A stretch of 64,000 bases of DNA from contig NZ_CP155618.1 of the NCBI RefSeq assembly GCF_031128465.2, positions 2,656,501 through 2,720,500 of the forward strand. The letters run 5' to 3'. Source of the DNA: Mariniflexile litorale. Lineage in GTDB: Bacteria > Bacteroidota > Bacteroidia > Flavobacteriales > Flavobacteriaceae. This document shows, piece after piece, positions 43,958 through 53,068 of the stretch (position 1 is the stretch's first letter; the number at the start of each line of letters is the position of its first letter). Position numbers and translations under genes: made by a program. The notes under the pieces were generated by a model that saw nothing but the letters and a program-made list of their open reading frames with translations, did no database searches and had not been told where the DNA came from.

Positions 43958-43987
43958 CGCAAGTTTTTATTTTTAACGGCATCTAAA
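43958..43987 (+). promoter_or_regulatory. ECF-type promoter of the sigma factor gene (site 1)
   Basis: CGCAAGTT (43958-43965), 14 bases, then CATCTAAA (43980-43987). The same two blocks at the same spacing occur before the next three transcription units. GGCATC at the second block (43978) also pairs with GATGCC at 43996. The sites suggest that the sigma factor drives its own gene. Confidence 0.75.
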
Positions 43988-43999
43988 TTAAAAAGGATG

Positions 44000-44022
44000 C
44001 CATCAAAGCATCGCTTTGATGG
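44000..44022 (+). promoter_or_regulatory. Perfect hairpin in the sigma factor leader
   Basis: CCATCAAAGC and GCTTTGATGG form a perfect 10-bp stem with a three-base loop, inside the roughly 90-nt leader between the ECF promoter and the TTG start. No T-run follows, so it is not a simple terminator. It may affect mRNA stability or translation. Confidence 0.5.
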
Positions 44023-44079
44023 TTCGATTGAAATTGTTATTCTCGTTAATACGGGAATTTAAATCAGATTTATAATTTT

Positions 44080-44658
44080 TTGACTGAAAACGAATTTATA
44101 GAAGGCTTACAAAACCATAACGCGAATGCGTATGGCAAGTTAATAGACGATTTTCAGCAAAAGGTTTTTGCTACCTGCATTTCATTTGTACCCAATAAAG
44201 AAGATGCCGAAGATATTGCACAAGATGTTTTTATGGAAGTTTTTAATTCGATTCATAAATTTAAAGGGAATTCGAAACTATCTACTTGGATTTATAAAAT
44301 CACGACCAATAAATGTTTAGAATTTATTAGAAAGCGGAATACGAAAAAGCGTTTTGCTTTTATGCAATCGCTTTTTGGAAATGAGATTCCAATAGATAAG
44401 AGTCGCTATTTTACAGAAATGAATCATCCGGGGATTTTATTAGAAAACAAAGAGAAAAGCGAAATCCTTTTTAAGGCTATAAATCAATTGCCAGAAGCTC
44501 AGAAAGTCGTGTTTTCGTTAAGTAAGGTGGACGGTATGAGTTATCAGGAAATTTGTGATATTACCGAGAAAAGTTTATCGTCGGTAGAATCATTAATGTT
44601 TCGAGCAAAAAAGAATTTACAAGATTCTTTAGAGAATTTTTATAAAAATAATAAGTAG
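44080..44658 (+). CDS. ECF-type RNA polymerase sigma factor
   Basis: A 192-residue sigma-70-family protein with regions 2 and 4 only. Region 2 reads DAEDIAQDVFMEVFNSIHKFKGNSKLSTWIYKITTNKCLEFIRKR. Region 4 reads LPEAQKVVFSLSKVDGMSYQEICDITEKSLSSVESLMFRAKKNLQ. The start is TTG, with no in-frame ATG nearby. It lies first in a cluster of secreted-protein genes whose units share its upstream motif, so it very likely transcribes them. The next gene may encode its membrane-bound partner. Confidence 0.92.
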   Translation: MTENEFIEGLQNHNANAYGKLIDDFQQKVFATCISFVPNKEDAEDIAQDVFMEVFNSIHKFKGNSKLSTWIYKITTNKCLEFIRKRNTKKRFAFMQSLFGNEIPIDKSRYFTEMNHPGILLENKEKSEILFKAINQLPEAQKVVFSLSKVDGMSYQEICDITEKSLSSVESLMFRAKKNLQDSLENFYKNNK

Positions 44659-44688
44659 CGCAAGTTTTTTTAAAATATGGCATCTAAA
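44659..44688 (+). promoter_or_regulatory. ECF-type promoter (site 2)
   Basis: CGCAAGTT (44659-44666), 14 bases, CATCTAAA (44681-44688). It directly follows the sigma gene stop and is 19 bp upstream of the next start. Confidence 0.75.
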
Positions 44689-44706
44689 ATAGTATAGCAC
44701 AATAAA

Positions 44707-45018
44707 ATGGAAACAAATAAAGACATACAAAACAAAATAGATAGCACTTTAAATGTTATAGATGCTATTGAAACCGCAAACGTGTCTCCTTTTTTTAAGG
44801 ATAAAACCATGCAACGTTTATTTACAGAAAAGGAAGAAATAGTAACAACTAGAAATTGGTTTTCACCAAAATTACAATTGGCTACTTTGTCCTGTGTTGT
44901 TATTTTGAATGTGATAGCATTTACTCAAATAAAAGCATCGTCTTATGATGAAAATATTAATGAATTTGCTGATACTTATGGGTTTTCTACAAGTACTGAA
45001 ACCTCATTTTTAAACTAA
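44707..45018 (+). CDS. Small single-span membrane protein, possible anti-sigma partner
   Basis: A 103-residue protein with no recognised family. The first 55 residues are charged and probably cytoplasmic (DIQNKIDSTLNVIDAIETANVSPFFKDKTMQRL). One hydrophobic segment follows (LATLSCVVILNVIAFTQI), then about 27 exported residues. The layout, and a position right after the sigma gene, fit a membrane-bound regulator, but no ZAS or other anti-sigma motif is visible. It is 17 bp upstream of the Spy-like gene. Confidence 0.7.
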   Translation: METNKDIQNKIDSTLNVIDAIETANVSPFFKDKTMQRLFTEKEEIVTTRNWFSPKLQLATLSCVVILNVIAFTQIKASSYDENINEFADTYGFSTSTETSFLN

Positions 45019-45035
45019 AAAATAAATCTAAACAG

Positions 45036-45572
45036 ATGAAAAAAAATATACTTTTATATGTTTTACTATTCTTTTTAATAATTGTTAATGGTTTTTTCTT
45101 GTATAATTATTTAGGAAAACCAGACGTGAAAAAAGAAGGTAAAGACCCCATGAGCTTTGTTATTAAGCAACTCAATTTTGATGATGAGCAGTTACAAGAA
45201 ATGCAGTTTTTAAATAAAAAGCATCATAAAAAAATGATGCGTATTAATGATGGTGTAAAAGAATTAAAAGACGCCTTATTTAATAGGTTGTCTGATATTG
45301 ATGTCGATGAAAAAGTTGTAGATTCTATTACAGCCTTAATAGGATTAAAAGAAAAAGAATTAGATAAAGAAGCATTTTATCATTTTAGAAGTATTCAAGA
45401 ATTGTGTAACGATAAACAAAAGGAAAAATTTAAAAGCATTATAAAGGATGCCCTTCATAAAGGTAGAGAACAAGGGGATAGACCAGCACCGCGGGAAGGT
45501 GGCCCTGATGGGCAAAGACTTCCGCATCTTGGAGGACCAGAAGGTAACAGATTGCCACCGCCGAATCATTAA
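45036..45572 (+). CDS. Spy/CpxP/CnrX-like periplasmic protein
   Basis: A 178-residue protein anchored by an N-terminal hydrophobic segment (NILLYVLLFFLIIVNGFFLYNYL). The mature part is mostly helical: QLNFDDEQLQEMQFLNKKHHKKMMRINDGVKELKDALF, then a second helical hairpin ending CNDKQKEKFKSIIKDAL. This matches the periplasmic metal-sensor or Spy-like chaperone fold, with the LTxxQ motif degenerate. The Pro/Gly-rich tail (GGPDGQRLPHLGGPEGN) is unusual. Such proteins often sense metal or misfolded protein for an ECF sigma system, as CnrX does, which fits this place. Confidence 0.75.
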   Translation: MKKNILLYVLLFFLIIVNGFFLYNYLGKPDVKKEGKDPMSFVIKQLNFDDEQLQEMQFLNKKHHKKMMRINDGVKELKDALFNRLSDIDVDEKVVDSITALIGLKEKELDKEAFYHFRSIQELCNDKQKEKFKSIIKDALHKGREQGDRPAPREGGPDGQRLPHLGGPEGNRLPPPNH

Positions 45573-45596
45573 AAAACTTAGAAACAAAGCTTTAAG

Positions 45597-45625
45597 GCCC
45601 TCAAGATATTGAGGGTCTTTTTTTT
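45597..45625 (+). terminator. Rho-independent terminator after the Spy-like gene
   Basis: CCCTCAA and TTGAGGG form a stem with loop GATA, followed by TCTTTTTTTT. It separates the second and third ECF-driven units. Confidence 0.88.
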
Positions 45626-45648
45626 GTGATTTTTTTAACAAATCTAAC

Positions 45649-45678
45649 CACAAGTTAAATCATAGAAGGGCATCTAAA
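45649..45678 (+). promoter_or_regulatory. ECF-type promoter (site 3)
   Basis: CACAAGTT (45649-45656), 14 bases, CATCTAAA (45671-45678). It lies just after a terminator and 25 bp before the EF-hand gene, as expected for a true promoter. Confidence 0.78.
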
Positions 45679-45703
45679 AGAACATAACAATAAAATATTA
45701 AAG

Positions 45704-45982
45704 ATGAAAAGTAACAGATTAAGAACAGCAGTATTAGTTTTTGGAATTGCATTATTTATGACGAATAACACCTTTGGGCAATCGGAGAAAAGAGACGATA
45801 GAAAAGAACCACCAACTTTTAAGGAGTTATTAAAAAAGATGGATGCCAATGATGATGGTAAACTTTCTAAAGAAGAAATAGAGGGACCTCTAAAAGATCA
45901 TTTTGAAAAAGTTGATGCCGATAAAGATGGTTTTATTACTGAAGAGGAATTAAAGAAAGCGCCGAAGCCAAAAAGAAGATAG
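45704..45982 (+). CDS. Exported EF-hand protein
   Basis: A 92-residue protein with a signal peptide (LRTAVLVFGIALFMTNNTFGQ). Two EF-hand loops follow: DANDDGKLSKEE (about 47-58) and DADKDGFITEEE (about 71-82), both with good calcium ligands. Small exported EF-hand proteins of this kind are common in the family but little understood. It begins the unit that continues into the CotH gene after 35 bp, which suggests a calcium link for that protein. Confidence 0.85.
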   Translation: MKSNRLRTAVLVFGIALFMTNNTFGQSEKRDDRKEPPTFKELLKKMDANDDGKLSKEEIEGPLKDHFEKVDADKDGFITEEELKKAPKPKRR

Positions 45983-46017
45983 ACCGTAGCATATAAATAA
46001 CCCTAAACACTAGAAAT

Positions 46018-47475
46018 ATGAAAAGAATAAATTCAATTAAAATAGTGATAAAAACAACGGTTTTTGTTATGCTTATTGCTTGTTTTACTGCTTGTAGTAA
46101 TGACGATTCTGCTGTGGTAGAAGCGATGGAAGACGAAGAAATAGCAGTCATTATAGATGATACCGATTTTGAAGCCACAGATTGGACTTCGGAAACACAC
46201 AGTAAAGATGCAGATCCAAATTTTGATGAAGTTTTTGATGATAATGCCGTGAAAAGATTAGATATCGTTGTTACAGAAGCACGTTGGCAAGCGATGCTAG
46301 ATGATATGACAAGCCTTTACGGAACATTTGGGGGGAATTCAGTTGGGCCAGGTGGCGTTGGATCAGCCAGTGGCGGATTAACAGAAATTGACGAAGATCC
46401 TATTTTTGTGCCAGCTGAAGTTTTTTATAATGGAAAAGAATGGTACCGTGTGGGCGTTCGTTTTAAAGGGAACTCAAGTTTGCAATCGAGTTGGCAAGCG
46501 GGTATTTTAAAATTATCATTCAAACTTGATTTTGATGAATTTGAAGATGATTATCCACAAATAAAGAATCAACGTTTTTATGGCTTTAAAAAATTAAGTC
46601 TTAAAAATAATTACGACGACACATCGATGCTTCGAGAAAAAGTGGCGATGGACGTGTTTAGAAATTCAGGTTTAGTAGGGTCGCATACAGCATTTTACAC
46701 GGTTTATGTAGATCATGGTGATGGTTCTCAATATTTTGGAGTGTATACGTTGGTAGAAGAAGTTGATGATACGGTTGTCGATACTCAATTTTCTAGTGAT
46801 GATGGAAACTTATACAAACCAGATGGCGATGCTGCAAGTTTTGCTAACGGTACCTATGATGAAGATGAATATGTAAAGAAGAATAATGAAGATGAAGCAG
46901 ATTTTTCAGATGTTGAAAGCTTATTATCAATATTACATGATGACTCAAGAACTACCGATGCAGCTACATGGCGAACTAATTTAGAAGCCGTTTTTGATAC
47001 CGATGTGTTCTTAAAATATTTAGCCGTAAATACCGTCATTCAAAATTGGGATACTTATGGTAGAATGACTCATAACTATTATTTATATAATAATCCAGAT
47101 ACTAATAAATTAACTTGGATTCCATGGGATAATAATGAAGCGCTTCAAGAAGGTAAACAAGGAGGATCGCCTGCACTCGATTTTTCAGATATATCAGCAA
47201 GTCAATGGCCGTTAATTGGTTACTTATACAACGATAGCGTTTATAAAGCTAAATATGATAGTTATGTTCAAGAAGCTGTCGATGGTTCCTTCAACACCAA
47301 CAGTATGCAATCGCTTTACACTTCATATTCAACTTTAATTGAGCCCTATGCAACTACCGAAGTTTCTGGTTATACTTTTTTAAATTCTAGTTCAGATTTT
47401 TATACGGCTATAAATCAATTAAAAAGTCATGTGTCATCTAGAGCAACAGCAGTAAATAATTACTTAAATAATTAG
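46018..47475 (+). CDS. CotH-family lipoprotein (secreted kinase-like)
   Basis: A 485-residue protein with a lipoprotein signal (lipobox-like FTAC). The CotH fold is recognisable: AEVFYNGKEWYRVGVRFKGNSS, KKLSLKNNYDDTSMLREKVAMDVFRNSGL, YFGVYTLVEEVDD, and NWDTYGRMTHNYYLYN followed by TWIPWDNNEAL. CotH proteins of spore-formers are atypical protein kinases that phosphorylate other surface proteins. The corresponding Arg, Glu and Asp residues seem present here but were not aligned. Its target could be a neighbour in the cluster; this is inference. It is cotranscribed with the EF-hand gene. Confidence 0.85.
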   Translation: MKRINSIKIVIKTTVFVMLIACFTACSNDDSAVVEAMEDEEIAVIIDDTDFEATDWTSETHSKDADPNFDEVFDDNAVKRLDIVVTEARWQAMLDDMTSLYGTFGGNSVGPGGVGSASGGLTEIDEDPIFVPAEVFYNGKEWYRVGVRFKGNSSLQSSWQAGILKLSFKLDFDEFEDDYPQIKNQRFYGFKKLSLKNNYDDTSMLREKVAMDVFRNSGLVGSHTAFYTVYVDHGDGSQYFGVYTLVEEVDDTVVDTQFSSDDGNLYKPDGDAASFANGTYDEDEYVKKNNEDEADFSDVESLLSILHDDSRTTDAATWRTNLEAVFDTDVFLKYLAVNTVIQNWDTYGRMTHNYYLYNNPDTNKLTWIPWDNNEALQEGKQGGSPALDFSDISASQWPLIGYLYNDSVYKAKYDSYVQEAVDGSFNTNSMQSLYTSYSTLIEPYATTEVSGYTFLNSSSDFYTAINQLKSHVSSRATAVNNYLNN

Positions 47476-47525
47476 ATAGAAAAACGTTGAATTGGTTAGT
47501 CTTTTTTAAAGAAAAACAGATTAAC

Positions 47526-47555
47526 CACAAGTTTTTTAATAATAACACATCTAAA
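47526..47555 (+). promoter_or_regulatory. ECF-type promoter (site 4)
   Basis: CACAAGTT (47526-47533), 14 bases, CATCTAAA (47548-47555), 22 bp before the YHYH gene. A longer reading frame from TTG 47487 would begin upstream of this promoter and is rejected. Confidence 0.75.
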
Positions 47556-47576: not shown

Positions 47577-48320
47577 ATGAAAAACGTATTGAAATTATCA
47601 ATGTTGATTAGTTTAATGGTATTGGCTTTTGTTGCTTGTTCAAGTGATGGTAGCCCTAATGATGAAATGGAAGAAGAAGTTATAACAGAATTACATGCTG
47701 CTTTTGAAGCATTTAATAAAGATGCTGTAACTATTTATCTAAGCGGTTCAAACGTTGTTATTGAAACAACTGGTTTGCCTAATCATAAAACTGTTTATTG
47801 GGGTGAAGGGCATAGTCTATATATGCAAGAGTCCACAGTACAAGCAACACCAAGCATCATGTCAAGTAATAATAACGCGACGACCATGACCGTGGATGCG
47901 ACTCCAAACTTAACTGGAAATTCCGTTTCTACACAGTTAAATACTATTGGTATCGCCGTAAGTGGTGCGTCAATATTTAATGACCAAGAAGGGAATGGCG
48001 CTTTAAACCAAGCAGCAGCTAGTTTAGATTGGACGGGTGCTCATATTGGTCCTGGGGTTTATCATTATCATTTAGAACCAAAAGCATTTACTGATGATGA
48101 CTCAAGTTTAGTAGGAATACTAAAAGATGGTGTGTTTCTTTATGGTAGGAAGTGTAGTTCTACAGGAACATATCCAACCAATTTAGATGCTTCAGGAGGT
48201 CACACAGCTTCTACGCAGTATACAGATGGAGAAGAAGAATATCATTATCACATCATTAACGAAATATATTCTACAACAGGATCTTACATTGCATTTGCGG
48301 GTCCTTACAGAGGTTACTAA
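47577..48320 (+). CDS. YHYH-domain lipoprotein
   Basis: A 247-residue protein starting MKNVLKLSMLI with a lipobox (FVACSS). The YHYH motif appears as GVYHYHLEP, with HYHI in a second place near the end (EEEYHYHII). Histidines clustered in this way could bind copper or another metal, but the family has no settled function. The sequence between is Ser/Thr/Asn-rich. Its TAA overlaps the next gene's ATG by one base. Confidence 0.83.
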   Translation: MKNVLKLSMLISLMVLAFVACSSDGSPNDEMEEEVITELHAAFEAFNKDAVTIYLSGSNVVIETTGLPNHKTVYWGEGHSLYMQESTVQATPSIMSSNNNATTMTVDATPNLTGNSVSTQLNTIGIAVSGASIFNDQEGNGALNQAAASLDWTGAHIGPGVYHYHLEPKAFTDDDSSLVGILKDGVFLYGRKCSSTGTYPTNLDASGGHTASTQYTDGEEEYHYHIINEIYSTTGSYIAFAGPYRGY

Positions 48321-48949
48321 TGAAAACAATAATCAAGTCTTTTTTTATGCTATTATTTTTAGTTTCATTTACCAATTGTAAAAGAACTTCAAATAATACA
48401 GCTACTAACGGTTCAGTTACATTCGATGTTAACACTCGTGTTGTAATAGATTCTATGGAAGTTGCCAAAAGCCAATTGGTTTTAAATCAATTGGAAGGTA
48501 CTTGGTATTTAAATAACAAACCTTATAATGGGTATTCGTTGAAATTTCACGCCAATGGTGGCTTAGAGGAAAGATTGGGTTTTTATCAAGGTAAAAGACA
48601 AGGTGTCGCTAAACGGTGGTCTGAAAATGGCATACTTAGAGTTGAATCATTTTATCATCAAAATAAATTGGTAGGCGCTTATAAAGTTTGGTGGGAAAAT
48701 GGCGAACTAGCAGAAGCATCTTTTTATGAAAACGGATTAAAGCAAGGTGAAGAAAAGCAATGGCATGCGAACGGTCAATTATCTAAATTACGTCGTTTGG
48801 TAGATGGAAATGAAAATGGAATGCAACAAGCGTGGTTAAAAAACGGTACCCTGTATATTAATTATGAAGCCAAAAATGGTCGTGTTTTTGGTTTACTAAG
48901 GTCTAACTTATGTTATCAATTAGAAAATGAAGTGGTTATTAAAAATTAA
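48320..48949 (+). CDS. YwqK/MORN-repeat lipoprotein
   Basis: A 209-residue protein with a lipoprotein signal (FLVSFTNC). The body consists of repeated wENGxL units: KFHANGGLEERLGFYQGKRQG, RWSENGILRVESFYHQNKLVG, WWENGELAEASFYENGLKQG, WHANGQLSKLRRLVDG. This is the YwqK or MORN-type repeat. Family names include 'antitoxin', but here the lipoprotein signal and neighbours point to an envelope role. It starts within the stop of the YHYH gene and overlaps the SCO gene by 23 bp. Confidence 0.82.
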   Translation: MKTIIKSFFMLLFLVSFTNCKRTSNNTATNGSVTFDVNTRVVIDSMEVAKSQLVLNQLEGTWYLNNKPYNGYSLKFHANGGLEERLGFYQGKRQGVAKRWSENGILRVESFYHQNKLVGAYKVWWENGELAEASFYENGLKQGEEKQWHANGQLSKLRRLVDGNENGMQQAWLKNGTLYINYEAKNGRVFGLLRSNLCYQLENEVVIKN

Positions 48950-49622
48950 AATAAATTATTGGATTTTAACTTTATTATTAATACTCGTTGTTGGGTGTAA
49001 AAATGAAGTAAAAAAAGAACCAGTTATAGAAGTAAAAACGAGTAGAGTGGATTTTCTGCCATTCTATAATGATGAGTCTTTTACGCCACATTGGTTAACT
49101 CCAAATAGCAAAGAGGAAAAAGAGTTTCATAAAATCCCTGATTTTAAATTAACAAATCAGTTAGGAAAAATTGTAACTCAAAAAACGTTTGAGAATAAAA
49201 TATATATTACCGACTTCTTTTTTGCGAGTTGTCCAGGTATTTGTCCGCAAATGACGAGTAATATGTTTAAGCTGCAAGAAGAATTTATAAATGATAGTGA
49301 CATATTATTTTTATCCCATTCTGTAACACCAACATTAGACTCTGTTCCTGTGCTTAAACAATACGCAAAAATGCATGGTGTTGTTGATAATAAATGGCAC
49401 TTAGTAACGGGTGATAAAATACAAATTTACAATTTAGGAAGAAACCAGTATTTTGTAGAAAACGATTTAGGTACTCCAAAAGATATTAACGACTTTTTAC
49501 ACTCCGAAAACTTCTTGTTAATTGACAAAAAGAAACACATTCGAGGGATTTACAATGGTTTGAATAGAGCGTCTATGGCACAGTTAGTTACAGATGTAAA
49601 AACGCTAAATAAAGAAATTTAA
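48927..49622 (+). CDS. SCO1/SenC-family copper chaperone
   Basis: A 231-residue protein, lipobox at Cys24 (LLILVVGC). The thioredoxin-like domain contains the copper motif CPGICP (Cys102 and Cys106) and a late His (His192, DFLHSENFLLID), the third ligand in SCO proteins. SCO proteins deliver copper or reduce cysteines for oxidases and other copper enzymes. In this cluster it may metallate a YHYH or other partner; a role for the cbb3 oxidase is also possible but the locus is far away. It overlaps the previous gene by 23 bp. Confidence 0.9.
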   Translation: MKWLLKIKINYWILTLLLILVVGCKNEVKKEPVIEVKTSRVDFLPFYNDESFTPHWLTPNSKEEKEFHKIPDFKLTNQLGKIVTQKTFENKIYITDFFFASCPGICPQMTSNMFKLQEEFINDSDILFLSHSVTPTLDSVPVLKQYAKMHGVVDNKWHLVTGDKIQIYNLGRNQYFVENDLGTPKDINDFLHSENFLLIDKKKHIRGIYNGLNRASMAQLVTDVKTLNKEI

Positions 49623-49646
49623 TTTTGTTGAATTGATTTTTAGTTG

Positions 49647-49685
49647 GAAAGGTTTCATGTTTTTACATGGAGCTTTTCTATTTTT
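49647..49685 (+). terminator. Hairpin after the SCO gene, probable terminator
   Basis: GAAAGGTTTCATGT and ACATGGAGCTTTTC pair through a TTTT loop with some G-T pairs, then TATTTTTA follows. The ATG at 49667 lies inside this hairpin, so the next gene more likely starts at 49703. Confidence 0.6.
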
Positions 49686-49702
49686 ATAAGAAATTAAAAT
49701 TT

Positions 49703-50755
49703 ATGAAACAGCTTTGTGCTTCTATTGTATATATAATTTTGTTGTTTTCTTGTGCAAAAAAGGAACCCATCAAACCAAGAAATTTTGTAAACGTTGAAAT
49801 AGAAACACTTTTACAAGATTCATTATTAAGTATCCGAGCCATTGAAATATTAAATGATGGTAGTTTAGCCTTTGCAGCCAATAATGGAGCCTTTGGTCTT
49901 TATAACCCTTTAAAAAATAGTTGGGTTACTTCTAAACAAGAGTTAGATAGTTTCAATTTAGAATTTAGAGCAGTGGCACACACAGCAACTGATTTTTTTA
50001 TGCTCAGCATTGAAAGCCCTACTTTATTGTATAAAACCAGCGATACTGGTAGTATGAAATTAGTCTATTATGAAAACCATACCAAAGCCTTTTATAATGC
50101 TATAAATTTTTGGAACAACCAAGAAGGTATAGCCATAGGCGATCCGATTGATGGATGTATGAGCATTATTATCACCAGAGATGGTGGTGAAAGCTGGAAG
50201 AAACTTTCTTGTGATGTGCTTCCTAAAACGAATGAAGGTGAAGCCGCTTTTGCTGCTAGTAACACAAATATAGCTATAGTTGGTAATCATACTTGGGTTG
50301 CAACAGGAGGAAAAACAAGTAGAGTTTTATATTCGGCTGATAAAGGAAAAACATGGAATGCTTTTGAAACACCAATAGTACAAGGTTTAGAAACTACAGG
50401 TTTGTATTCTATAGATTTTTATGATGAATTAAACGGGTTTGCTATAGGTGGCGATTACACCAAACCAGACAATAATGCAGCAAACAAAATACGCACAACC
50501 AATGGCGGCAAAACATGGGAATTGGTGGGGCAAAACCAAAACCCTGGTTATACAAGTTGTGTGCAATACATTCCTAACAGAGAAGGAAAGGAGCTGGTTG
50601 CTATGGGGTTTATAGGAATAGATTATAGTGCCGATTCAGGAAATACATGGAAACACTTAAGCGATGAAGGATTTTATACTATAAGATTTTTAAATGATAG
50701 TACGGCCTATGCAGCAGGAGCAGGACGAATTTCTATACTTACTTTTAAAGAATAA
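49703..50755 (+). CDS. BNR/YCF48-like beta-propeller lipoprotein
   Basis: A 350-residue protein from ATG 49703, with a lipobox (LLFSCAKK). The body has repeats of the Asp-box type: ITRDGGESWKKL, YSADKGKTWNAF, TTNGGKTWELVG and YSADSGNTWKHLS, as in photosystem II assembly factor YCF48-like and sialidase-like propellers. No sialidase active-site set is obvious. Annotated relatives are often called 'oxidoreductase' without evidence. It may belong to the ECF cluster by position, but no shared promoter motif precedes it. Confidence 0.8.
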   Translation: MKQLCASIVYIILLFSCAKKEPIKPRNFVNVEIETLLQDSLLSIRAIEILNDGSLAFAANNGAFGLYNPLKNSWVTSKQELDSFNLEFRAVAHTATDFFMLSIESPTLLYKTSDTGSMKLVYYENHTKAFYNAINFWNNQEGIAIGDPIDGCMSIIITRDGGESWKKLSCDVLPKTNEGEAAFAASNTNIAIVGNHTWVATGGKTSRVLYSADKGKTWNAFETPIVQGLETTGLYSIDFYDELNGFAIGGDYTKPDNNAANKIRTTNGGKTWELVGQNQNPGYTSCVQYIPNREGKELVAMGFIGIDYSADSGNTWKHLSDEGFYTIRFLNDSTAYAAGAGRISILTFKE

Positions 50756-50892: not shown

Positions 50893-52707
50893 TTATTTTT
50901 TGTTAGATATTTTTTTACCGTCAACAATAATTAAAGGAGACTCCCCTTTTGTGGTAGATGTAGCTTTTATTCTTATATAATCATGATTGATTGAATCTAA
51001 TTTCTTTTCATATCCACTCACTACTACATCGGCCATAGGTTTATGTACTATAAATTCTGTTTGCCATTTATTATTTTCAGTAGTAATTTCAATCACGCCA
51101 TTTATTCCTTTAACACCATTTTTTTCTATAGCTTTTTCGTCTTTTATAACGTTCATTGATTTAATGTTGTTATGTTTTATGTTTTTTAGTTTTTCATAAG
51201 GTAGCTCCTTACTATCAACAATAATCAAAGGTTGTTTGTAACTATCAATTTCAATTTTATGACCAATTTTTATATTTTTATTTGAATCCGATGCATTGCT
51301 ATACTCAATTACTTTTATATCAGATGCTTTTCCTTTTGTAGTAATTATAATAACACCATTTTTACCTTTATCACCGTAAGCCTTATTTGCTGCTTCTCCT
51401 TTAAGAATATCTATTTTTTTAATATTTTCAGAATTTAATTTATCAAATTCACTTTTTTTAGACTCTTTACCATTTATAATAAAGAGAAGATTATCACTTA
51501 TTGAGTTAGGATTATTTTTGTTTCTTAGTTTAATTGTATCTGTATCCCTTTCACTAATTCTTGTTTGAGTTTTTGTGTTTTCTGGTTGTAACTGAATATT
51601 AAGTAGAGTTATAGTATCTACTGTAATTTTTTGAGTCAACATTCCTTTAAAACTAATAATAAGTATGTCTTCTTTTTCTGCCTCTATTATGTAATCTCCA
51701 TCAAAATTAGTTACAGTGCTTTTATTTTTTCCTTCAATAATTATATTTACTCCAGGTAATCCTAAACCTTCTTTATTAGTAACTATACCAGAAATTTTTT
51801 GACTAGTTCTTTTTAATAATGTTGTATCGTTTTCTAACTTTTCAAAAGGAGTGTCTACTTTAACATAAATTTTTTTAGTATTGCAACTCATTAAAAACAG
51901 AGCTAATAGAGGGATTACCAAGGCATATTTTAGTTGATTTATTTTCTTTGATTTTGATTTGTGCAACATAACGATTCGTTTTTTGATTAATGAGTTATAA
52001 AAATTATTTGTAATTGCCAATTGATGTTTTGGCATACTTGTTTTTAATAAGGTGTATTGGTAACTTTTTTTACAGTTAGTTTCTTTTTGTGCATTTTGGT
52101 CGGCAATAAATTCTAAATTTTGTTTTAAATCTTTATTGTAGAGCCAAATAAAAGGATTAAACCAAAGTACAATACAAGCAAGTTGTGTTAATATATTATC
52201 TATAGAATGATATTGTTTAACATGAACAATTTCATGCGCTATAATTTGCTTTAGTTCTTCTTTGTTAAATAGAGCAGGGTTTAAAACAATCCATTTAAAA
52301 TAAGAGAAAGGCAAAATGTTATTAGTAGTTGTAATAATTGTAAAATGACTTTGTTTTTCACGCTTATTTTTTATGATTACACGAGACAAGGATATTAATT
52401 GAACCACAAAACGGATGGAAAATACAATAACTCCCAATACATATATAATAGAAATGAGGTCTAGTAATTTAAAAGATTCTTCAATGGTTTCTGACGCTAT
52501 ATAAGCATCAGTAGTAAAATTAGATAGGTCTATAGGTGTATACTCGATATAAATAGGAATAACAACAAAAGGAATAAGAAATCCTGTTAGAATGCCTAGT
52601 AAAAGAAAAACTCTATTAAATTCAAAAAACGTATCACGCTGTAAAAACAGTTTGTAGCACAGATAAAAAATAGTAATAACGGCACTCGTTTTTAAAAGAT
52701 ATTCCAT
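50893..52707 (-). CDS. M56-family metallopeptidase (BlaR1-like) with plug-like repeats
   Basis: About 604 residues from ATG 52707, one base after the blaI-like stop; a TTG at 52725 is a weaker start. Four membrane segments surround the zinc site HEIVH (IIAHEIVHVKQYHS, about residue 164) and EFIADQNA. After about 300 comes a carboxypeptidase-regulatory-like domain (GIVTNKEGLGLPGVNIIIEG), then repeats ending IDILKGEAANKAYG/KGKNGVIIITT and MNVIKDEKAIEKNG/KGINGVIEITT, like TonB-receptor plug domains. A third repeat is cut by the stop. BlaR1-like proteases sense a signal and cleave the paired repressor. Confidence 0.85.
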   Translation of the reverse strand: MEYLLKTSAVITIFYLCYKLFLQRDTFFEFNRVFLLLGILTGFLIPFVVIPIYIEYTPIDLSNFTTDAYIASETIEESFKLLDLISIIYVLGVIVFSIRFVVQLISLSRVIIKNKREKQSHFTIITTTNNILPFSYFKWIVLNPALFNKEELKQIIAHEIVHVKQYHSIDNILTQLACIVLWFNPFIWLYNKDLKQNLEFIADQNAQKETNCKKSYQYTLLKTSMPKHQLAITNNFYNSLIKKRIVMLHKSKSKKINQLKYALVIPLLALFLMSCNTKKIYVKVDTPFEKLENDTTLLKRTSQKISGIVTNKEGLGLPGVNIIIEGKNKSTVTNFDGDYIIEAEKEDILIISFKGMLTQKITVDTITLLNIQLQPENTKTQTRISERDTDTIKLRNKNNPNSISDNLLFIINGKESKKSEFDKLNSENIKKIDILKGEAANKAYGDKGKNGVIIITTKGKASDIKVIEYSNASDSNKNIKIGHKIEIDSYKQPLIIVDSKELPYEKLKNIKHNNIKSMNVIKDEKAIEKNGVKGINGVIEITTENNKWQTEFIVHKPMADVVVSGYEKKLDSINHDYIRIKATSTTKGESPLIIVDGKKISNKK

Positions 52708-52708
52708 G

Positions 52709-53068
52709 TTATTTGTCTTTTTCAATTAAAGCAATAATCTCTTTAAGATCTTCAACACTTATTTTTTCTTCTTTTGCAAAAAACGATACCATGTTTTTAT
52801 AGGAATTATTAAAGTAGTTGTTAATAGCTACATTCATAAAACCTTTTCTATAGTCTTCTTTTGTTACAATAGGGTAGTATTGGTGTGTTTTTCCATAGGC
52901 GTTATAGCTAACATAACCCTTCTCTTCTAAATTTCTAATAATGGTAGAAAGCGTGTTGTAGTGAGGCTGTTCTTCTTTTATTTCTGCCAACACATCTTTT
53001 ACAAAAGCTTTTTCAAGTTTCCATAAAATATGCATAATCTCTTCTTCTTTGTTTGTTAATTTTTCCAT
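52709..53068 (-). CDS. BlaI/MecI/CopY-family repressor
   Basis: A 119-residue winged-helix protein: LTNKEEEIMHILWKLEKAFVKDVLAEI, then HYNTLSTIIRNLEEKGYVSYNAYGKTHQYYPIV, a textbook BlaI DNA-binding domain, and a short dimerisation tail. It is paired with the M56 protease gene one base downstream, as in bla and mec systems. Two operator-like palindromes sit at its promoter. No beta-lactamase is nearby, so the regulated target may be the pair itself or a distant gene. Confidence 0.92.
   Translation of the reverse strand: MEKLTNKEEEIMHILWKLEKAFVKDVLAEIKEEQPHYNTLSTIIRNLEEKGYVSYNAYGKTHQYYPIVTKEDYRKGFMNVAINNYFNNSYKNMVSFFAKEEKISVEDLKEIIALIEKDK

Follow-up and report, generated by a model that had tools for sequence, protein, structure and literature searches.

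A candidate envelope-signalling ECF sigma factor system with one putative promoter motif shared by four transcription units in Mariniflexile litorale

The window analyzed here is a 64,000-nucleotide stretch of the Mariniflexile litorale genome (Flavobacteriaceae; contig NZ_CP155618.1, positions 2,656,501 to 2,720,500). It contains a gene for an extracytoplasmic function (ECF) sigma factor, followed on the same strand by genes for a 103-residue membrane protein, a membrane-anchored periplasmic protein, an EF-hand protein, a CotH-kinase-family protein and YHYH-family, MORN-repeat and SCO1/SenC proteins (Table 1). In Pfam searches the sigma factor consists of regions 2 and 4 only. Its start codon is TTG at 44080, which corrects an earlier note on this DNA that was made from the sequence alone. 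The terminator which that note described ahead of the EF-hand unit is present as a stem followed by a T run; however, terminator-like sites in the region number 6 versus 3.4 in shuffled sequence, so a single such site is not proof. The last unit may end at the terminator-like stem behind the SCO gene.

Table 1. Features of the sigma factor locus, in window coordinates
Feature	Coordinates	Strand	Basis
Putative promoter site 1, ahead of the sigma gene	43958..43987	+	Exact match
Palindrome within the leader (92 nt) that separates site 1 from the sigma start	44000..44022		Unique match in genome
ECF sigma factor, 192 aa, TTG start	44080..44658	+	Pfam Sigma70_r2 3.4e-16, Sigma70_r4_2 4.9e-16
Putative promoter site 2, ahead of the likely anti-sigma and sensor genes; first base directly follows the sigma stop codon	44659..44688	+	Exact match
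103-aa protein, one predicted membrane helix (about residues 57-75), likely anti-sigma factor	44707..45018	+	Hydropathy
Membrane-anchored periplasmic Spy/CnrX-fold protein, likely sensor	45036..45572	+	AlphaFold (AF2) model, Foldseek, family profile
Intrinsic-terminator-like stem between sensor and EF-hand units	45594..45619	+	11-pair stem, then T run
Putative promoter site 3, ahead of the EF-hand and CotH genes	45649..45678	+	Exact match
EF-hand protein, apparent signal peptide (by eye)	45704..45982	+	Pfam EF-hand_5 1.1e-12
CotH-kinase-family protein, lipoprotein-like N-terminus (by eye)	46018..47475	+	Pfam CotH 1.3e-71
Putative promoter site 4, ahead of the YHYH unit	47526..47555	+	Exact match
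YHYH-family protein, lipoprotein-like N-terminus (by eye)	47577..48320	+	Pfam YHYH 8.9e-08
MORN-repeat (YwqK-like) protein, lipoprotein-like N-terminus (by eye)	48320..48949	+	Pfam MORN_2 1.7e-09
SCO1/SenC protein, lipoprotein-like N-terminus (by eye)	48927..49622	+	Pfam SCO1-SenC 4.7e-22
Terminator-like stem behind SCO	49645..49680	+	Terminator scan
BNR/Ycf48-like protein, conserved neighbour, regulon membership not claimed; true start perhaps 49703	49667..50755	+	Pfam scan

Scanning the window for the two-box motif C(G/A)CAAGTT-N14-CATCTAAA returned four copies with zero mismatches, all on the plus strand. They lie where the earlier note had placed them, 15 of the 16 box positions are invariant, and each copy heads the unit assigned to it: from the end of the second box there are 92 nt to the TTG of the sigma gene, 18 nt to the ATG of the 103-residue protein gene, 25 nt to the ATG of the EF-hand gene and 21 nt to the ATG of the YHYH lipoprotein gene. 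The claim that such an array cannot be chance also stood. In 100 dinucleotide shuffles of the window, no match was found at up to one mismatch, and the genome of this organism (G000, 4,521,428 bases) contains only these four exact copies. Thus, the motif is not scattered over the genome without relation to the sigma gene, the outcome against which the note had warned; 4/4 exact sites are in this locus.

Relaxing the motif gave the following picture. At up to three mismatches the window contains 7 matches versus 2.26 expected, which marks the three looser ones as noise. The genome contains no site with one mismatch and four with two mismatches (two inside open reading frames [ORFs] only, one inside an ORF just ahead of another and one intergenic), while at up to three mismatches there are 122 matches versus 124 for a reversed control motif, and these looser matches are noise. 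The shorter form CAAGTT-N14-CATCTAA, at up to one mismatch, matched 12 times versus 14 for its control. Neither of these looser genome scans (up to three mismatches, or the shorter form) revealed a further convincing regulon member. Matches to E. coli-type promoters (25 versus 32.6 expected) were not used as evidence.

The earlier note had also proposed a search of relatives for the motif beside homologous sigma genes. Among 299 genomes of the same family, its own included, a protein search with the window sigma factor gave 35 strong orthologues (E ≤5.7e-78; next best match, 1.3e-41). The other 34 are 60-86% identical to the window sigma factor, and the 35 form one clade (support 100/99, from a bootstrap that had not settled). 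The exact motif is present in 30 of the 299 genomes, and all 30 belong to the 35 with a sigma orthologue; none of the 264 genomes without one carries it (Fisher p 2e-36, with kinship between genomes ignored). The reversed control motif matched in one genome. The motif and the sigma gene are thus inherited together. In a phylum-wide set of 345 genomes, again including its own, the exact motif was found in the Mariniflexile litorale genome only and the reversed control in one genome, while a sigma homologue (E ≤1e-30) occurs in 119. A variant with the same -35 and spacer and CGTCAAA as second box was found in 13 of the 345 genomes versus 8 for its reversed control; in 6 of these 13, it starts 22-31 bases past the end of the match to the sigma homologue. 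This is suggestive of a -10 box that changes across the phylum.

A different ECF sigma factor might instead use these promoters, with the linked sigma gene itself only one of its targets. Elsewhere in the genome (L006:1501-1530; G000:C1:1565736), a lookalike promoter, CGCAACCT-N14-CATCTAAA, combines the same -10 with a different -35 and lies 26 nt ahead of a lipoprotein-like gene that is followed, as judged by eye, by another ECF-type sigma gene. Because of this lookalike, the -10 type may be shared. However, the CAACCT variant (with CRTCTAA) is a single occurrence in the genome, and the exact motif is missing from all 264 genomes of the family that do not carry the linked sigma gene, although a first look saw other sigma-like candidates there. 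We regard reading by another sigma factor as quite unlikely.

Six exact copies, in six family genomes, lie away from the sigma gene. The genes behind them encode two sulfatases, one CCP/MauG protein, one VTC-DUF4956 pair, one YHYH protein and one CotH protein (Pfam identified one sulfatase as well as the CCP and CotH proteins, and BLAST the YHYH protein; the second sulfatase and the VTC-DUF4956 pair were recognized by eye). These gene families also occur in sigma-linked units, which gives the distal sites the look of a trans-acting regulon. At one distal site (L125; G017:C5), the sulfatase-like gene appears by eye to be split into two ORFs.

The architecture of the motif was followed in two sets of loci: (i) 34 loci around the other family orthologues (592,650 bases) and (ii) in a separate scan, the best 80 of 107 loci (1,629,283 bases), from genera that include Algibacter, Hyunsoonleella, Flavivirga, Tamlana, Winogradskyella, Polaribacter, Kordia and Lacinutrix. 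At a spacer of 14 bases the 34 loci contain 73 exact copies, and none at spacers of 8-13 or 15-20. The 80 loci contain 216 exact copies at spacer 14, and none at 10-13 or 16-18. Allowing up to one mismatch, the 80 loci have 286 sites at spacer 14 (the 216 exact copies among them), every one on the strand of the sigma gene; in the set of 34, two exact sites are in the opposite orientation, ahead of divergent units (L118, L123). Aligning 109 sites from the family loci and the six distal loci showed that the boxes are fixed while the flanks and the spacer vary, with an extended consensus of CRCAAGTTTTT-N11-CATCTAAA in which G is favoured ahead of CAT.

Distances were counted from the end of the second box to whichever codon aligns with the first residue of the window protein. 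They are 23-32 nt to the sigma gene in 32/35 loci (mode 24) and 22-34 nt to the EF-hand gene in 45/47 (mode 26). The gap to the 103-residue protein gene is 8-10 nt in 51/77 loci, 47 of which have an ATG there, and distances to the YHYH gene are scattered (11-53 nt in 29/43 loci and 128-199 nt in 14). A near-fixed spacer, a single orientation and a short distance to the start are what a promoter needs, and the motif is therefore best read, from its sequence context, as an ECF sigma factor promoter with a specific -35/-10 pair. If transcription starts the usual few bases past the box, the message for the 103-residue protein would be nearly leaderless in the loci with the 8-10-nt gap; the window, with its gap of 18 nt, would not be among them. 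Site 1 and the sigma gene are separated in the window by an unusually long leader. On the minus strand, the palindrome within this leader resembles a terminator stem, and some relatives (L159, L161, L164 and L167) have comparable extra sequence at this place.

A shared upstream motif could by itself also be an operator, bound by a distinct regulator of the sigma gene and its neighbours. We consider this very unlikely, since the boxes are non-palindromic, point in one orientation at nearly one spacing and end near start codons, the distribution of the motif tracks the sigma orthologue, and none of nine scanned locus proteins (0/9) matched another regulator family in Pfam. That four near-identical two-box sites within 3.6 kb arose by recent duplication or belong to a mobile repeat, rather than being selected promoters, has next to no credibility in the face of strongly contrary comparative data: the boxes are fixed while the spacer bases vary, across sigma factors 60-86% identical to that of the window, and 280 of the 286 sites (up to one mismatch, 80 loci) could be assigned a gene within 400 nt. 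All three alternatives (a separate regulator, another sigma factor and a repeat) were rejected.

With the motif read as the promoter of the linked sigma factor, the genes that accompany it can be compared between loci (tblastn, E 1e-4). The sigma gene, the gene for the 103-residue protein and the Spy-like gene occur together in 34/34 and 80/80 loci, and the order sigma, 103-residue protein, Spy-like protein is kept in all 72 loci in which both starts can be aligned. The candidate outputs vary. Among the 80 loci, YHYH-type genes are found in 77, EF-hand or CotH genes in 66, MORN genes in 64 and SCO genes in 63, and sites in relatives also precede genes for VTC with DUF4956 and DUF2490, for CCP/MauG and for sulfatases. 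At 20 loci of distant sigma homologues, the sigma gene was found in 19, of which 18 have a homologue of the Spy-like gene and 13 a homologue of the 103-residue protein. In one such locus from another family (L150), genes for the sigma factor, a 103-residue-like protein, the Spy-like protein, YHYH, MORN and SCO are consecutive. The BNR/Ycf48-like gene behind the last terminator-like stem is a frequent neighbour (46/80 loci). Beyond it, at 50893-53068 on the minus strand, lie genes that by eye encode an M56-peptidase-like protein with a TonB-plug-like part and a BlaI/MecI-like repressor.

The 103-residue protein is likely an anti-sigma factor. In gene position, length and membrane topology it is reminiscent of CnrY. 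Its family profile gave a best Pfam E value of 0.0023, in 2 of 31 members, and against PDB chains at E 5 the best match was an unrelated chain at 0.06, with CnrY absent. The anchored protein is likely a sensor of the CnrX/Spy fold, as judged from its AlphaFold (AF2) model (mean predicted local distance difference test [pLDDT], 83.9). In a Foldseek search of the PDB with this model, rows 1-7 are all CnrX, ahead of CpxP, Spy and ZraP, with probability 1.00 and target template-modelling (TM) scores of 0.75-0.80. The profile of the sensor family matches Spy (3oeo) at E 1.8e-5 when built from 29 sequences and at 3.2e-4 when built from 64; at E 0.01, 32 of the 64 members match Pfam LTXXQ and 26 match Metal_resist. 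Conserved residues are H63 (61/64), M67 (58/64), H116 (47/64) and C124 (53/64). A soft-metal site is possible, since positions 63, 67 and 116 would be close to one another in an antiparallel hairpin; the metal ligands of CnrX are H42, H46, E63, H119 and M123. The model predicted for the YHYH protein (mean pLDDT, 43.7) was too poor for a structure search.

In layout, the locus resembles the CnrYXH/NccYXH systems of Cupriavidus metallidurans, which consist of an ECF sigma factor, the short anti-sigma factor CnrY (class II, according to the classification excerpted from PMC7406223) and the periplasmic sensor CnrX. Shared with them is the combination of an ECF sigma factor with a short one-helix membrane protein and an anchored periplasmic four-helix protein; the CnrX rows that head the Foldseek result have E values of 0.021-0.051. 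However, the sigma factor is far nearer to RpoE/SigW (2e-28) than to CnrH (9.8e-11), and CnrY is missing from the profile matches of the 103-residue family. No metal-efflux family was found among nine window proteins or, from relatives, among 19 further proteins of regulon regions and one sensor. The system is therefore not assigned as a member of CnrYXH, the likeness of the sensor being structural and modest.

Three further systems share single features with the locus. The envelope-stress proteins Spy, CpxP and ZraP share the fold and, for Spy, the sequence profile of the sensor, whereas the protein here is membrane-anchored, has a Pro/Arg-rich tail and is encoded beside an ECF sigma factor. 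In the SigR-RsrA system of Streptomyces, the anti-sigma factor RsrA is a soluble zinc protein. As described in the excerpted text of PMC5472188, that system also has a conserved non-ATG sigma start and a dedicated anti-sigma promoter, an arrangement that keeps the inhibitor in excess; unlike here, the SigR start is GTC and repressed by IF3, and the rsrA promoter is of the principal-sigma type. ECF21-Dma of Bacteroidota likewise pairs an ECF sigma factor with a membrane anti-sigma factor, but Dma, in the portion of PMC13088901 used here, has a long tether and a C-terminal beta-barrel, whereas the protein here has 103 residues and one hydrophobic helix.

The distribution of the sites bears on how the circuit is wired. 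The earlier note had read the locus as a self-activating ECF regulon with a specific -35/-10 pair. The tie between the motif and the sigma gene held, but self-activation does not look like the core of the circuit. A site with up to two mismatches lies ahead of the pair encoding the 103-residue protein and the sensor in 77/80 loci, while a site at spacer 14 lies ahead of the sigma gene in at least 35/80, a lower bound since four loci (L173, L181, L210 and L217) have near-matches at other spacing. With about 35/80 against 77/80, positive self-activation has the look of a lineage-specific addition, which this genome shares. The conserved loop looks negative (inhibitory). Of the 80 loci, 44 have no spacer-14 site (up to three mismatches) ahead of the sigma gene, and 20 of these carry TAnnTTGY 24-28 nt ahead of the sigma start; of the 36 loci that do have such a site, none carries it. 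TAnnTTGY is the SM5 box of Flavobacterium psychrophilum (PMC9723704, as given in its excerpted text).

A second feature of the sigma gene is its start codon. The codon at residue 1 is TTG in 80/80 loci, two of them by extension of an alignment starting at residue 5 or 7. The aligned first codon is ATG for the gene of the 103-residue protein in 71/78, for the sensor gene in 69/80 and for a neighbouring 404-residue protein gene in 69/69. TTG is not exclusive to this gene: it is the aligned first codon in 9/26 MORN and 7/40 other-sigma matches, for which the query starts are unsure. The TTG start may act as a brake on translation of the sigma factor.

Taken as a whole, the locus is in our judgement very probably a self-contained envelope-signalling ECF system, made up of a sigma factor, an anti-sigma factor, a CnrX-fold sensor and a promoter shared by four units, with a damped response. 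In this model, the sigma holoenzyme would recognize CRCAAGTTTTT-N11-CATCTAAA (14 bases from CRCAAGTT to CATCTAAA) and start four units: (i) the sigma gene, (ii) the anti-sigma and sensor genes, (iii) the EF-hand and CotH genes and (iv) the YHYH-MORN-SCO genes, whose roles as outputs we infer. In the resting state, the cytoplasmic N-terminal part of the 103-residue protein would keep the sigma factor at the inner membrane. The anchored CnrX/Spy-fold protein would read a signal in the envelope, and the sigma factor would be freed through the anti-sigma factor. Activation would then probably yield more inhibitor than sigma factor, and hence a damped response, because the anti-sigma and sensor genes have their own putative sigma-dependent promoter and the sigma gene starts with TTG. 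Damping is the step of the model of which we are least sure.

Several observations weigh against this model. On the side of the motif, five of the 35 sigma-bearing family genomes (G248, G207, G188, G211 and G086) lack an exact copy, although sites with one or two mismatches are present at their loci; three exact sites in the 80 loci have a spacer of 15; and the sets of 34 and 80 loci are not independent, since they have strains in common (13 of the 34 contigs match one of the 80 in length). On the side of the proteins, searches of Pfam and of PDB profiles detected no kinship of the 103-residue protein to known anti-sigma factors. The sensor model reached Foldseek E values of 0.021-0.051 for CnrX, with no match below 0.001; by sequence its family resembles Spy, with CnrX not among the profile matches, and the sensor of the window itself matches no Pfam family at E 0.01. 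On the side of the wiring, the sigma-proximal site is lost in about half of the loci, contrary to autoactivation as an essential feature. Damping is also weakened by the SigR work, in which, as far as the excerpted text goes, a TTG substitute was canonical and gave sigma factor in excess (PMC5472188), so that the TTG start at this locus may not restrain the sigma factor to the same extent.

A broader generalization would see in these loci a Bacteroidota-wide class of ECF systems built for damping. It would have a CnrX-fold sensor, a new family of anti-sigma factors of about 100 residues with sigma-dependent, near-leaderless transcription, a sigma factor restrained by an invariant TTG, a new envelope ligand and CotH, EF-hand, YHYH and SCO outputs. 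We put this forward tentatively and would sooner expect some of it to fail than all of it to hold.

Among the PMC matches listed, the literature on flavobacterial ECF promoters, on ECF classification and on Spy/CnrX-ECF systems in Bacteroidetes contained no description of this system, nor did that on leaderless or TTG starts with anti-sigma factors or on the relevant genera with ECF or SCO1. In the same PMC literature, a search linking YHYH, CotH and a sigma factor found nothing, one for YHYH with CotH or copper found nothing relevant among the matches listed, and papers on a YHYH protein or domain concerned phages and diatoms only.

To our knowledge, few flavobacterial ECF regulons have a promoter tied to one sigma factor. 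In F. psychrophilum, as described in the excerpted text of PMC9723704, an ECF-like motif could not be attributed to any one of the seven ECF sigma factors, and a class I anti-sigma factor lies nearby for only 6% of Bacteroidetes ECFs (excerpt of PMC7406223). Here, one motif is tied to one sigma factor through co-inheritance, together with a candidate inhibitor and a candidate sensor. The regulon, its signal and the roles of the YHYH, CotH and EF-hand proteins therefore become directly testable, and the motif provides a sequence signature by which the regulon may be found in other genomes.

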